A DNA stretch of 21,298 bases from the IMG/VR virus record IMGVR_UViG_3300021960_007283, positions 1 through 21,298 of that record, one strand, 5' to 3'. The translations under genes and the position numbers were made by a program. The DNA comes from a virus. Within the stretch, counting starts at the first letter, position 1. Every line of letters starts with the position of its first letter. Positions 1,826-16,947 of the stretch are shown piece after piece. The notes beneath the pieces were generated by a model. That model saw only the letters and a list, made by a program, of their open reading frames with translations. It was not told the DNA's origin and did no database searches.

Positions 1826-1851
1826 TAAAAAAAGGAGCGTATTGCCCCTTG
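1826..1851 (-). terminator. Hairpin plus T-run between promoter and lysozyme start
   Basis: On the minus strand AAGGGGC, loop AATAC, GCTCCTT forms a seven-pair stem with one G-U, followed by a T-run that abuts the ATG of the lysozyme gene. It has the form of an intrinsic terminator for the hli operon upstream. The expected start of transcription from the promoter at 1852-1880 falls inside the left arm. Confidence 0.65.
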
Positions 1852-1880
1852 ATTATAGTTTATTCGGTTTTGTTTGTCAA
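1852..1880 (-). promoter_or_regulatory. Perfect sigma70-type promoter for the lysozyme cassette
   Basis: The minus strand reads TTGACA (1880-1875), a 17-base spacer, then TATAAT (1857-1852): a complete match to the consensus. The TGA stop of the 44-residue gene (1879-1877) is part of the -35 box. Transcription should begin near 1845. Confidence 0.85.
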
Positions 1881-2011
1881 GAAGATGACGGTGCGTAAAC
1901 TGGTTGCATCAATCCACCACCTGGTCCGTCATTGTCATCGTCAATATCAATATCAGATAATACTGCATTAATAATAAAAAGAAGTACCAAACCTGATGCG
2001 AATACTAGCAT
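1877..2011 (-). CDS. 44-residue one-helix membrane protein with acidic patch
   Basis: A hydrophobic N-terminal helix (about residues 3-18) is followed by an acidic run DIDIDDDNDGP, then GGGLMQPVY and a short tail ending SSS. The ATG at 2011 directly follows the TAA of the hli gene with no gap, so the two are almost certainly co-translated. Proteins with this helix / Asp-run / PGGG-QPVY layout are, as I remember, common beside hli in cyanophages, but their function is unknown. Coupling to a chlorophyll-binding protein suggests a thylakoid or membrane role (inference). Confidence 0.75.
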   Translation of the reverse strand: MLVFASGLVLLFIINAVLSDIDIDDDNDGPGGGLMQPVYAPSSS

Positions 2012-2119
2012 TTACCATACCCCTGGAATAATTTGGCCTGTGACTGCATAACTACCCATTGCGGCAATGACTCCAAGCATTGCTGCCCAACCGTTAATGC
2101 GTTCTGCGTTTTCGTTCAT
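2012..2119 (-). CDS. hli: High-light-inducible protein (Hli), 35 residues
   Basis: The protein reads MNENAERINGWAAMLGV, then IAAMGSYAVTGQIIPGVW. The ER-NG-AAM motif is the chlorophyll-binding helix of the Hli / CAB superfamily, and TGQ-IPG-W is the usual cyanobacterial C-terminus. Hlips sit as single helices in the thylakoid membrane, pair through this motif, bind chlorophyll and carotenoid, and help dissipate excess light energy and protect photosystem II; phage copies are thought to keep the photosystems working during infection. This one is close to the minimal size. Its start overlaps the stop of the 49-residue gene upstream as ATGA. This is the best single marker that the host is a cyanobacterium. 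Confidence 0.93.
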   Translation of the reverse strand: MNENAERINGWAAMLGVIAAMGSYAVTGQIIPGVW

Positions 2120-2265
2120 TTGTTTTGCTCCAAAGTTTTGTTGTAAATAATAATTTTCTCTCCATCATGAGAGAATTGTAGCTCGTCTTCTGGATGCCAG
2201 AGAAGTTCTTCGTACATGTCATCCAGTTTCTGCATGTCCTCGTAGAGTTGATTGGGGTTTGGCAT
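2116..2265 (-). CDS. 49-residue conserved cyanophage protein
   Basis: MPNPNQLYEDMQKLDDMYEE, then LLWHPEDELQFSHDGEKIII and YNKTLEQNK. It is soluble and acidic, with no membrane segment: a helical first half and a beta-like second half. The stop overlaps the following hli start by four bases, and a TATAAT promoter sits just upstream at 2300-2327. The gene belongs to a mini-operon of 49-residue protein, Hli and 44-residue membrane protein. I believe close relatives occur in other marine T4-like phages, with no known function. Confidence 0.75.
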   Translation of the reverse strand: MPNPNQLYEDMQKLDDMYEELLWHPEDELQFSHDGEKIIIYNKTLEQNK

Positions 2266-2299
2266 ATTACTTTTTGCTATTCTCCATATCTATTCCACT

Positions 2300-2327
2300 A
2301 TTATAGCAGACAATTTTCAAGTGTCAG
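2300..2327 (-). promoter_or_regulatory. Sigma70-type promoter before the 49-aa/hli/44-aa operon
   Basis: Minus strand CTGACA (2327-2322), 16-base spacer, TATAAT (2305-2300). The -10 is perfect and the -35 differs at one base. The TGA stop of the upstream hli gene (2326-2324) lies inside the -35 box. The expected start is near 2293. Confidence 0.75.
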
Positions 2328-2542
2328 AATCCGAAGACACCAAAGAAAAATACACTACCACTGAAAGCATAAGAGACAACAGCAGCAACAAATCCAACCA
2401 TAGCAGTGCGTCCATTCAATTTCTCTGCTTTTTCTGCATAACTCTCATATCCATAACGCTCTGCGTCTGTCTCAGAGATATACATTCTAGGCTCAGTGGC
2501 ATACATGTTTGTGCGTCCACCGTCTTCAGTTGTTACAGTCAT
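2324..2542 (-). CDS. hli: High-light-inducible protein (Hli), 72 residues
   Basis: A hydrophilic N-terminal half (about 1-38, rich in Tyr, Glu and Thr) leads into the chlorophyll-binding helix KLNGRTAMVGFVAAVVSYA at about 41-59, followed by FSGSVFFFGVFGF. This ending differs from the IPG-W ending of the other hli gene, so the two copies belong to different Hli subtypes and are not a recent duplication. The role is binding of chlorophyll and carotenoid in the thylakoid membrane and photoprotection of the infected cell. GGAG lies eight to nine bases before the ATG, a good ribosome-binding site. It has its own promoter (2570-2598). Confidence 0.93.
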   Translation of the reverse strand: MTVTTEDGGRTNMYATEPRMYISETDAERYGYESYAEKAEKLNGRTAMVGFVAAVVSYAFSGSVFFFGVFGF

Positions 2543-2569
2543 GTTACACTCCGTAATGTTTCTTTACAT

Positions 2570-2598
2570 AGTATATAGGAAATCTAAAGACCTGTCAA
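2570..2598 (-). promoter_or_regulatory. Sigma70-type promoter for the 72-aa hli gene
   Basis: Minus strand TTGACA (2598-2593), exactly 17 bases, TATACT (2575-2570). The -35 is perfect and the -10 differs at one base. It lies directly after the stop codon (2602-2600) of the 69-residue gene. The first eleven bases, TTGACAGGTCT, recur in the promoter region at 3388. Confidence 0.85.
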
Positions 2599-2599
2599 G

Positions 2600-2809
2600 T
2601 CAATAATCCATGTCTCCACCATAACTGATGCAGGTCTTTTTGTTTTCTGCTGATGATCTACACCACTGCCTCACATAGGCATCCGCGTCCTTATCCATTG
2701 TAAAGTGAGCATGGTTATGTAATGCTCCTATTGTGATGAGCAGTCCAATAGTAAGCACATTATAATGGACTGCTGGATGAGTAATCATCTTTAGAAAATA
2801 ATTTTTCAT
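2600..2809 (-). CDS. 69-residue single-pass membrane protein
   Basis: Read from ATG 2809 as MKNYFLKMITHPAVHYNV, with a hydrophobic helix at about 18-33 (VLTIGLLITIGA), then a His-rich patch (HNHAH) and a polar C-terminal domain with two cysteines (QWCRSS and KKTCIS). A start ten codons earlier would lie inside a terminator hairpin, so I rejected it; Met8 is another option. There is no Shine-Dalgarno motif, only a T-run before the ATG, as with the lysozyme gene. A TATAAT at 2838-2843 is placed to drive it. The function is unknown; the two cysteines on one side of the helix suggest a periplasmic or lumenal domain. Confidence 0.65.
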   Translation of the reverse strand: MKNYFLKMITHPAVHYNVLTIGLLITIGALHNHAHFTMDKDADAYVRQWCRSSAENKKTCISYGGDMDY

Positions 2810-2836
2810 AAAAAAAGAGGGATGCCGTCGCACCCC
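2808..2836 (-). terminator. Intrinsic terminator after the beta-barrel-like gene
   Basis: On the minus strand GGGGTGC, loop GACG, GCATCCC makes a seven-pair stem with one G-U, followed by TC and seven Ts running straight into the ATG at 2809. It ends transcription of the gene at 2876-3247 and also sits in the leader of the next gene. Confidence 0.8.
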
Positions 2837-2837
2837 C

Positions 2838-2866
2838 ATTATAACATCTAGATGTTTATGTGTTTA
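2838..2866 (-). promoter_or_regulatory. Probable promoter overlapping the terminator
   Basis: Minus strand TAAACA (2866-2861; four of six), 17-base spacer, TATAAT (2843-2838; perfect). The start is expected near 2831, inside the left arm of the terminator hairpin. This copies the arrangement before the lysozyme gene. Confidence 0.55.
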
Positions 2867-2875
2867 TATTGAATA

Positions 2876-3247
2876 TCAGAAGCTGTACTTCAGACCCAAC
2901 TTAGTACCGTAACCACGGTCAATGTCAGCATCGCCAGATCCGACGAAGGAGACTTCGCCGTATGCACCCAGGGCATCGGTCAATGCAAGACCTAGACCTG
3001 CCTTACCAGAGGGAACGGTATCGCCTTCACCGCTGTCAGGAGAGAGCACGGTAGCACCTGCTTGGACGTAGTAAGAAGAGTTCTCACCAATTGCTCCTTC
3101 GTAACCTACGTGCAGATCGGTATTTGTACCGTTATAATCGGATCCCGTGAAACCGGAGTTGGCTTCGACGTTAACATATGGACCTGCAAGGGCAGCGCCT
3201 GCGGACATGGACAGAGCAGCAGCAGCTGCGAATACAGATTTAATCAT
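2876..3247 (-). CDS. Secreted beta-barrel-like (porin-like) protein
   Basis: 123 residues: a textbook signal peptide (MIKSVFAAAAALSMSAGAALA, cut before GPYVNVEAN) and a body of alternating polar and hydrophobic strands rich in Gly, Tyr, Asp and Ser, such as SSYYVQAGATV and LGAYGEVSFVGSG. It ends in KLGLKYSF. A C-terminal Phe after alternating strands is the signature recognised by the outer-membrane assembly machinery, so a small outer-membrane barrel is likely. Compared with typical eight-strand barrels it is short, perhaps four to six strands. I recall similar proteins in many cyanophages, function unknown. It is expressed alone from a late promoter with a long structured leader, and a strong terminator follows. 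Abundant late expression is implied; a virion component or a host surface modifier are both possible. Confidence 0.8.
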   Translation of the reverse strand: MIKSVFAAAAALSMSAGAALAGPYVNVEANSGFTGSDYNGTNTDLHVGYEGAIGENSSYYVQAGATVLSPDSGEGDTVPSGKAGLGLALTDALGAYGEVSFVGSGDADIDRGYGTKLGLKYSF

Positions 3248-7520: not shown

Positions 7521-8304
7521 AAATGCCTTGGTCTAATCCAATATAGTTTAGATCAATACTAAACTTTCCACAATAGGGTTCCCCCCTTTCTTTAGATTCA
7601 TTAATGATTGGAACCGTATAACTGTTCAAATCATTAATCATTTCAGCAATATCACTCAGATAAAACTTACGATCATATGTACAATCTATCATATGCGGCC
7701 TTGCTTGAATCAGATAAGGACTACATTCTAAACTATACTTCAAGATCTTATAAAAGTCCTTAACATACATAAAATCCATCAACTTATCTTGGAAGATAAT
7801 GATGGGTTCTTTGTTAATATAGTTTTTGATTGCTGTTGTAATAAACCTATGATCGTCTTCATGGATACCAAAGCAACCAAAGAGTTTTAAATTAATACCA
7901 CGTTCAATGCTTCCTACACTGCGAGCAGCACAATACTTAGAAAATCCATAAGGATCTATAGGTATAGTTCCAGAATCAAAAAGAGATGCACCACTATCAA
8001 TATTAATAAAACGATCAACATATTTGTAATATGCAAATATATTTTCAAAAATTCGCATATTATCAAGATAGGTAATCAATCCATCTTTTTTAGTTCTACG
8101 ACCACCTATAACAGCAGCATGAACGATTGCATGATAATTAAATCCATGCTCATTAAAATATTTTATAACTGAATTATTATCAGTAAAATTTAATTCAAAT
8201 GATGATGGAGCAACAACTTCATATCCATCTTTACGGAGAAGTGGAATGACTTCTTTTCCAATGAAGCCCCCACCACCAGTGAAGAAGATTTTCTTACTTA
8301 TCAT
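7495..8304 (-). CDS. NAD(P)-dependent sugar epimerase/reductase (GDP-fucose-synthase-like SDR)
   Basis: 269 residues from ATG 8304 (an earlier start adds eight residues that overlap panB more deeply). GGGGFIG at 10-16 is the Rossmann dinucleotide loop. YGFSK gives the catalytic Tyr119 and Lys123, with Ser before them in INIDSGAS. HAAVIGGR and LMDFMYVKDF recall GDP-L-fucose synthase, which epimerises C3/C5 and reduces C4 of GDP-4-keto-6-deoxymannose; several residues differ, so the substrate is open. It could equally perform the reduction that completes a branched 4-keto sugar (the YerF-type step) or epimerise an NDP-heptose (the HldD step). It overlaps panB by 11 bases and the next gene by 26. 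Confidence 0.8.
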   Translation of the reverse strand: MISKKIFFTGGGGFIGKEVIPLLRKDGYEVVAPSSFELNFTDNNSVIKYFNEHGFNYHAIVHAAVIGGRRTKKDGLITYLDNMRIFENIFAYYKYVDRFINIDSGASLFDSGTIPIDPYGFSKYCAARSVGSIERGINLKLFGCFGIHEDDHRFITTAIKNYINKEPIIIFQDKLMDFMYVKDFYKILKYSLECSPYLIQARPHMIDCTYDRKFYLSDIAEMINDLNSYTVPIINESKERGEPYCGKFSIDLNYIGLDQGIYELYKSLC

Positions 8305-15233: not shown

Positions 15234-15892
15234 TATGCACCAACAACATAATTACGAACTTTTTCTTCTTCAGTTGAAACAGGGAAGCAGATCAGATAGC
15301 CTTCTTGCAGATAAGACTCAACGATAATGTGAGTGTCATCAAGCAGTTCATAGACAAAATCCAGGTTTGCTCCACCGTGCAGGGTCTTGTTCTCAAAGTT
15401 TCCGTTCTCGTAAGGACCATCCTTGTAGATACGGATATCATCGATAACAATGATGTCCTTGCTTACGTCGCGCTTCTGACACAAGATACGTAGTTCTCCT
15501 TCCAGAGGGATCTTGATAAAGTCAGGATCATCACGAATAACCTCACGATGAAACTCATCACGATAAGAGTCAGGAAAGTGTGCGTCAAGGAAAAATAAAG
15601 CAGGGTTCTCATCTAGTTCTTTGATAACTTTAGGAAGTTCATCGTGACTATTACCCAAGTGCATCACTACATGATCGTTATCTTTAAAGTATTCTACTGC
15701 CTCGTCATGAATACGATCAAGGATCTCAATCGAATGCATCGTCAGATCAGGTTTCTGTAGTTGAGATACTTGAAGTAAAGAATTTTGGCCGTATGAATCT
15801 AAAATACCACCGGTTCCTGTTTCGACATAGTGTTGAATACCAAAGTCCTCAAAAGTTGGACGAAGGTTAATTGCATTTTGAAGTTTTGCCAT
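15233..15892 (-). CDS. Putative SAM-dependent methyltransferase
   Basis: 219 residues. HYVETGTGGILDSYG at 21-35 looks like motif I of a Rossmann methyltransferase, MHSIEILD at 52-59 the acidic ribose-binding strand, ALFFLDAHFP at 98-107 motif IV, and DIIVIDDIRIY at 146-156 the following strand. These fit a small sugar or natural-product O-methyltransferase, and an FkbM/TylF-like role is plausible in this operon. I cannot name the subfamily. The start and the GME stop share one base (TGATG). Confidence 0.65.
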   Translation of the reverse strand: MAKLQNAINLRPTFEDFGIQHYVETGTGGILDSYGQNSLLQVSQLQKPDLTMHSIEILDRIHDEAVEYFKDNDHVVMHLGNSHDELPKVIKELDENPALFFLDAHFPDSYRDEFHREVIRDDPDFIKIPLEGELRILCQKRDVSKDIIVIDDIRIYKDGPYENGNFENKTLHGGANLDFVYELLDDTHIIVESYLQEGYLICFPVSTEEEKVRNYVVGA

Positions 15893-16947
15893 CAGAGGTT
15901 TCCTTTCGTATTTTCAATTTGTTCTTTGATCCAATTATAAGTGATTCGGATCCCTTCTTCAAGTGTTTGCGAATAGTCCCATCCAAGTTTTTCGCGGATT
16001 AAATCGTTGTTAGAGTTCCTACCACGCACACCCAGAGGACCATCAATATGAATCTTAGTAACTTCTTTCTCTGCAACTCTAGCAGCAGTATCTACCAGTT
16101 GATTAATAGTCACCATCTCTTCAGAACCAATATTGACTGGTCCCATAAAGTCTGATTGCATCAATCGGAAAGTTGCTTCAACGCATTCGTCAACGAACAA
16201 GAAGGAACGAGTTTGTAAGCCATCTCCCCACACCTCGATTGCTCCACCTTGCTGCGGAAGGAAAGCAACTTTACGGCAGATTGCAGCTGGTGCCTTCTCT
16301 CTTCCACCGTCCCAGGTTCCTTCAGGACCGAAGATGTTGTGATACCTAGCAATCCTAACAGGGATGCCATGGTTGCGATTGTAAGCAAGGTAGAGACGCT
16401 CACTAAAGAGTTTCTCCCATCCATACTCGGAGTCTGGTGCTGCGGGGTATGCAGATTCTTCACGGCAGTCTGGGTTATCAGGATCGAGTTGATTATGCTC
16501 AGGATACATACAAGCAGAACCAGAGTAGAAAATTTTAGCAGTACGTTCTACTGTCTCATTAAACTTACGCTGCTCCTCAAGAACATTCAGATTAATAGTT
16601 ACAGAGTTATGCATGATATCTGCATCATTCTCACCAGTGAAGACGAAACCTGCACCACCCATATCAGCAGCAAACTGATAGATCTCATCAAAGGAAAGGT
16701 GATATCTATCAGGAACACTGGCATAGAAGTTCCCTTGAAATCCTTTAAATCGAATAACACGACTAACGAAAACTGGATCAGTCAGATCACCCAGAATAAA
16801 TTCGTTTGCTTCAGTTTCACAATACTCAGGATACTTTAAGTCTACTCCACGCACCCAGTATCCTTCGGCACGAAGTCTCTTGACCATATGACTTCCAATA
16901 AAGCCACCAGCACCTAGAACCAGTGCTGTTTTACTATATTCAGACAT
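15892..16947 (-). CDS. GDP-mannose 3,5-epimerase homologue
   Basis: 351 residues, an extended SDR. GAGGFIGSH at 12-20 binds NAD. The protein follows the plant/bacterial GDP-mannose 3,5-epimerase pattern closely: YQFAADMGGAGFV at 90-102, SACMYPE with acid/base Cys146, EYGWEK with Tyr175 and Lys179, RYHNIFGPEGTWDGGREKAP with Lys218, VWGDGLQTRSFLFVDECVEA, and GVRGRNSNNDLIREKLGW. GME converts GDP-D-mannose to GDP-L-galactose and GDP-L-gulose. It is the first gene of the sugar operon, read from the promoter at 16971-16999 with a very short leader. The product would feed the GDP-sugar transferases downstream. All catalytic residues I know for the family are present. Confidence 0.92.
   Translation of the reverse strand: MSEYSKTALVLGAGGFIGSHMVKRLRAEGYWVRGVDLKYPEYCETEANEFILGDLTDPVFVSRVIRFKGFQGNFYASVPDRYHLSFDEIYQFAADMGGAGFVFTGENDADIMHNSVTINLNVLEEQRKFNETVERTAKIFYSGSACMYPEHNQLDPDNPDCREESAYPAAPDSEYGWEKLFSERLYLAYNRNHGIPVRIARYHNIFGPEGTWDGGREKAPAAICRKVAFLPQQGGAIEVWGDGLQTRSFLFVDECVEATFRLMQSDFMGPVNIGSEEMVTINQLVDTAARVAEKEVTKIHIDGPLGVRGRNSNNDLIREKLGWDYSQTLEEGIRITYNWIKEQIENTKGNL

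Follow-up and report, generated by a model that had tools for sequence, protein, structure and literature searches.

A fusion of terminator and promoter of about 50 bases recurs beside many unrelated genes, psbA and psbD included, and the underlying arrangement of a -10 hexamer and a terminator hairpin is far commoner than chance in cyanomyoviruses. Judging from sequence comparison, the promoter of a gene and the putative terminator of the operon preceding it probably share DNA in these units, with a predicted transcription start (+1) inside the left arm of the hairpin. Two such units, sites A and B, lie in the window (the whole 21.3-kb virus fragment analysed here), which by its genes and its nearest relatives belongs with the T4-like cyanophages that infect Synechococcus and Prochlorococcus.

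Two units on the minus strand

Both units are encoded on the minus strand (Table 1). The order of elements at site A (1880-1823) is TTGACA-N17-TATAAT-C-[7-bp terminator hairpin]-T-run-A-ATG, and that at site B (2866-2807) is TAAACA-N17-TATAAT-[8-bp hairpin]-T-run-ATG. The preliminary description had given both sites the same order of TATAAT, hairpin, T-run and start codon, which is confirmed with gaps of one and zero bases between -10 and stem, except that at site A a single A parts the T-run from the ATG. Its figure of under 60 bases for the proposed insulation applies to site A, where 51 nt separate stop and start, and not to site B, where the distance from the stop of the Phage_OMP gene to the start is 66 nt. 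As it had also stated, direct reading of the two leaders reveals no Shine-Dalgarno site.

Table 1. Positions of the features of sites A and B, their genes and the second layout within the window.
Feature	Position	Strand	Remarks
Gene A, 194-aa lysozyme-like protein	1241-1825	minus	Pfam Phage_lysozyme2 PF18013, E 4e-11; PHROG 512
Site A T-run	1833-1827	minus	doubles as U-rich leader of next gene; one A, then ATG 1825-1823
Site A terminator hairpin AAGGGGC-AATAC-GCTCCTT	1850-1832	minus	one base (C) after -10
Site A -10 TATAAT	1857-1852	minus	17-nt spacer; invariant in 10-sequence alignment
Site A -35 TTGACA	1880-1875	minus	kept in aligned site A relatives and cultured phage S-SM2
Gene B, 69-aa small protein, no assigned function	2600-2809	minus	PHROG 2587
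Site B T-run (7 T)	2816-2810	minus	touches ATG 2809-2807
Site B terminator hairpin GGGGGTGC-GACG-GCATCCCT	2837-2818	minus	then C
Site B extended -10 TGT-TATAAT	2843-2838	minus	zero bases before stem
Site B palindrome ACATCTAGATGT, 12 bp	2855-2844	minus	last 12 bases of 17-nt spacer (TAAACA-N5-ACATCTAGATGT-TATAAT); adjoins -10
Site B -35-like TAAACA	2866-2861	minus	weak in window (4/6)
Gene upstream of site B, cyanophage outer-membrane-like beta barrel	2876-3247	minus	Pfam Phage_OMP PF24653, E 2e-50
Type II hairpin AAAGACCCTTGACATCAAGGGTCTTT holding -35 TTGACA	17007-16971	minus	-10 TATCAT 17 nt on

Both sites carry putative sigma-70-type promoters, with conserved hexamers 16-18 nt apart: site A matches at 12/12 positions, one of only two such matches in the window in a consensus scan, and site B combines its extended -10 with a -35 that agrees at 4/6 positions in the window. 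A T4-type late promoter (TATAAATA) was rejected, as the sites read TATAATCA and TATAATGG and have -35 elements. At each site a GC-rich stem is directly followed by a T-run, as in intrinsic (rho-independent) terminators; the stem at site A has modest stability (-8.7 kcal/mol, shuffle z -1.3). The TTGACA of site A includes the TGA stop (1879-1877) of the small upstream ORF 2011-1877. The product of gene A has an apparent lipoprotein signal with the lipobox LGASC, recognised by eye. No Rfam model matched positions 1780-2920, which cover both sites, at E values up to 1.

In homologous loci drawn from IMG/VR, the whole unit is kept in relatives of both sites; the sequence of the hairpin turns over and its placement stays constant. 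For site A, TTGACA and TATAAT are unvarying in the aligned set and the pairing is kept in 91% of alignment cells, with no pair changed on both sides in the alignment of relatives. Its hairpin variants include GCCCC in L003, GGGAGC/GCTCC in L022, GGGGGTACTACGCACCCCC in L103 and AGGGGACAGTTACATGGTCCCCT in L262, and the cultured phage S-SM2 has, at SSM2_227, a site A-type hairpin of different sequence (GGGGGTACTACGCCCCC) in the identical placement. In L031, one of the relatives, the right arm of site A has been lost but promoter and gene are retained; promoter and terminator functions thus appear separable. At site B the pairing is kept in 99.2% of cells, and two of the pairs have changed in both arms. 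The -35 position there reads TAGACA (5/6) in 66/80 relatives, some of which were retrieved with a pattern containing the palindrome and the -10, and in 22/26 of the subset found by protein alone. An in-frame upstream start at site B (ATG inside TATAATGGGG) was rejected because most relatives read TATACTGGG.

The unit that follows the Phage_OMP gene is also present in the cultured phages S-CAM1, Syn1 and RN05-S. In the cultured phage Syn9 a unit stands after psbD, at 168317-168350 of the Syn9 record, with only ~30 bases between psbD and gp219, and the TGA stop of psbD supplies the TG of the extended -10.

A genome-wide class in cyanomyoviruses

The search of other cyanophages for TATAAT, hairpin and ATG, which the preliminary description had proposed, extended the two cases to a genome-wide class and also yielded a sister layout (see below). 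Based on 4.2 Mb of cyanomyovirus DNA, we obtained 248 distinct strong terminators and defined a close -10 as a TATAAT-like hexamer ending 0-3 nt before the stem (gap 0-3) and a good -35 as at least 5/6 matches at 16-18 nt. A -10 at gap 0-3 was found in 37/248 terminators, compared with 2-11 per 4-nt bin at distances of at least 12 nt. Good -35 elements accompanied 18/37 of these cases but only 1/46 of those at gaps 8-24, against a background of 2.4%. Start codons within 2 nt of the T-run were enriched among gap 0-3 units (odds ratio 4, P=2e-4), some of which are weak or have no adjacent gene. Cyanobacterial host DNA showed 3/116 terminators at gap 0-3, none of them with a good -35; none with a good -35 was found in T7-like cyanophage (13 terminators) or T4-like coliphage (4 terminators) either, which are weak controls because of these small samples.

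The same loci could be read as ordinary compact neighbours, in which the terminator belongs to the upstream gene, the -10 lies nearby by accident of short AT-rich spacing and the downstream gene is expressed otherwise. Short intergenic distances occur everywhere, some terminators have a -10 with no gene start after them, and, because the 24 nt before the stems are AT-rich, shuffling these bases alone gives a mean of 12.8 close -10 hexamers (sd 3.4, maximum 24 in 500 shuffles). The observed 37, however, lie above this range, nearly half of them carry a correctly spaced -35, the 116 host terminators provide no case with a good one, and at one orthologous place the presence of the -10 tracks a gene start at the T-run (see below). 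We therefore regard this explanation as quite unlikely.

Among the genes upstream of the units are Phage_OMP, psbA, psbD and one for a small '...GGGLMQPVYAPS' protein, and among those downstream are glutaredoxin-like, PurC-like and oxygenase-like genes, named here from their sequences, as well as many small proteins. One set of units, suspected to lie behind gp23, instead has psbA D1 as its upstream protein. At the psbA terminator a -10 abuts the stem in L036:8819, L019:11903, L020:11901 and L400:3733, mostly with no adjacent gene start, and in L401 a glutaredoxin-like gene starts at a psbA terminator with an abutting -10.

The left arm is G-rich in 25/27 strong units versus 129/211 other terminators, which is as expected if the arm must double as the start region; G-rich arms suit such a region and perhaps also the discriminator. 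A GGGA-like discriminator is contacted by sigma region 1.2, and the arm might be kept mainly as a promoter element of this kind, the hairpin being a by-product. The frequency of G-rich arms and the occurrence of TATACTGGGA in L271, L245 and L079 would fit, but many units carry AAGGG or GAGGG instead, and the right arm and the T-run are also kept, with matching changes, so that a mere discriminator is highly improbable.

Predicted folding and comparison with known systems

For a polymerase arriving from the upstream gene, hairpin and T-run would constitute an intrinsic terminator, which at site B would end the transcript of the Phage_OMP gene. Early sigma-70-type promoters of cyanomyoviruses are believed to be read by the host polymerase in unmodified form (PMC2984593). 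A host promoter of this type would direct transcription from ~5-8 bases downstream of the -10, a position within the left arm, and at site A the predicted +1 at the 7th base does fall in this arm. As transcription would begin inside the arm, much of it would be missing from the local RNA and the terminator could not form; the U-rich leader of this RNA, ~20 nt long, would be unstructured and extend to the ATG. RNA that reads through the terminator would carry the hairpin ~7-8 nt before a start codon that has no Shine-Dalgarno site, and would probably be translated poorly.

The predicted folding is consistent with this scheme. When the RNA starts at the 7th base after the -10, its folding energy changes from -8.7 kcal/mol for the full RNA to -0.4 kcal/mol at site A and from -14.5 to -2.9 kcal/mol at site B, and the mean over 38 units, -12.6 kcal/mol for the full RNA, shifts to -2.7 kcal/mol when transcription begins within the arm. 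It could be argued that the promoter's own RNA retains enough hairpin to be attenuated or stabilised, as a 5' stem-loop or attenuator, since RNA beginning with the 4th base could still form a weaker stem of -7.0 kcal/mol at site B and a neighbouring class with the -10 ~10 nt before the stem would include the whole hairpin in the RNA. Against this, the peak at gap 0-3 sets the usual +1 inside the arm, the mean stem energy drops as described, and L031 manages without a hairpin; we consider a retained hairpin very unlikely.

The preliminary description had promoters firing into the arm of a terminator, so that incoming transcripts stop and local ones escape. The anatomy and logic of this proposal are well supported comparatively, by the -35 elements, the placed hairpins and the starts at T-runs, and from them we infer start sites, termination and escape. 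Transcript maps reportedly exist for Syn9; our search of the open literature found no start-site map of a cyanomyovirus.

In the late genes e, soc, 49, I-TevI and segB of T4 and in mobE of Aeh1, the sequence encoding the 5' strand of a hairpin includes a late promoter of T4 type. The hairpin, which hides the ribosome site, is complete in long transcripts but has no 5' arm in those started locally, and the ribosome site is unmasked on late RNAs (PMC3014915, PMC2988022). The cyanophage promoter is likewise placed so that, by geometry and folding, the local RNA would lack the 5' arm. A translational device of the gene e or I-TevI type, with the hairpin chiefly blocking translation of longer read-through RNAs and termination being secondary, would share this geometry, and gene A is lysozyme-like, as is T4 e. 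In contrast to these genes, the cyanophage stem ends ~7-8 nt before the ATG and contains no Shine-Dalgarno site, which leaves start codon and leader outside it; a T-run, needless for a translational hairpin, directly follows the stem; and the downstream genes are of many kinds. Their stem does not cover the start codon and their promoter is of host sigma-70 type; the cyanophage units thus lack two defining features of the T4 e/I-TevI system, and a translational device appears unlikely. What would be disarmed in the local RNA of the cyanophages is a terminator rather than a sequestered ribosome site.

Further parallels exist outside the T4 group. In the transposase genes of IS10 and IS50, transcripts from outside carry an inverted repeat that is missing from internal ones, and incoming RNA of the cyanophage units would similarly carry a repeat that local RNA lacks; the protection in IS10/IS50 is translational and belongs to mobile elements. 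Attenuators and terminator riboswitches also place an intrinsic terminator just before a start codon, whereas local RNA of the cyanophage units is expected to be incapable of folding into the terminator, irrespective of any signal. Promoters (BPROM) and terminators (TransTermHP) of cyanomyoviruses have been predicted, including around pstS (Sullivan et al. 2010, PMC3037559), and text passages of that paper make no mention of promoter-terminator overlap. A search of the text of open papers found no description of terminators fused to promoters in cyanomyovirus genomes; a Corynebacterium paper using the words 'within the terminator' was set aside, as it concerns 3' ends.

The post-OMP site, a sister layout and accessory genes

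The terminator behind the Phage_OMP gene allowed us to compare 92 distinct orthologous terminators with respect to the -10. Where a -10 abuts the stem, 64 terminators have an adjacent gene start and 12 have none, while among those without a -10 only one has such a start and 15 do not. The association of the abutting -10 with a gene start at the T-run is strong when relatedness is ignored (P=4e-9); since relatives are not independent, P values overstate it, and the contrast between the 64 and the 15 is partly lineage. In L008 and the cultured phage S-SKS1, palindrome and hairpin of site B are present and the -10 is lost, and the T-run there is not joined to the start of any usefully long gene. 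Several cases lacking a -10, for example that of the Syn9 OMP gene, have on direct reading a downstream gene with a GGAG-like Shine-Dalgarno site some bases on.

Across 3.3 Mb of cyanophage DNA, the palindrome ACATCTAGATGT was counted 51 times, versus 0.35 expected by composition. All 51 copies are at post-OMP sites, and 50/51 abut a -10-like hexamer. It looks like an operator and is a candidate binding site for a regulator. A genome-wide operator role was rejected, because the palindrome is confined to the post-OMP site.

In the sister layout, here called type II, the stem-loop itself contains a TTGACA-like hexamer, and a -10 lies 16-18 nt beyond it. This was found in 26-27/248 cyanomyovirus terminators, compared with 0-2 at wrong spacings and 0 in host DNA. 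Both layouts save space; in type II the start falls beyond the hairpin. Near the end of gene B, the hli promoter (TTGACA at 2598, TATACT; region 2640-2570, minus strand) shares bases with CAGGTCTTT; this stretch could form a stem across a ~38-nt loop with AAAGACCTG, found where gene B ends. At a place comparable to the hli promoter, the relatives L608 and L609 carry a compact hairpin that encloses the -35.

More tentatively, T4-like cyanophages may systematically fuse terminators to host-type promoters in these two layouts, and the start-inside-stem unit after Phage_OMP, psbA, psbD and similar genes may be a ready-made landing site. If so, any ATG joined to the T-run would obtain its own promoter as well as insulation from its neighbour, which would help swaps of accessory genes and suggests how these could be exchanged with the neighbours undisturbed. 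This reading would also account for genes without a Shine-Dalgarno site that start directly on a terminator T-run, and it would provide a sequence rule for the ends and starts of operons in ocean-abundant T4-like phages, including around psbA and psbD. Elements of ~50 bases could moreover be natural compact insulators for cyanobacterial genetics.

Other structured regions were also observed in these genomes. Downstream of an hsp20-gene B pair, L120, L121, L143 and others share a conserved TATAAT that is separated by 10 nt from a terminator hairpin (AGAGACC...GGTCTCT); the new RNA would contain this hairpin in full, and a start preceded by GGAG comes after it, a logic unlike that of sites A and B. 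Syn9 and a relative contain wcaG and PhotoRC-II RNA motifs (L164:13184-13278 and 15875-15970; L036:5300-5394 and 7589-7684), which in Syn9 precede hli and psbA genes.
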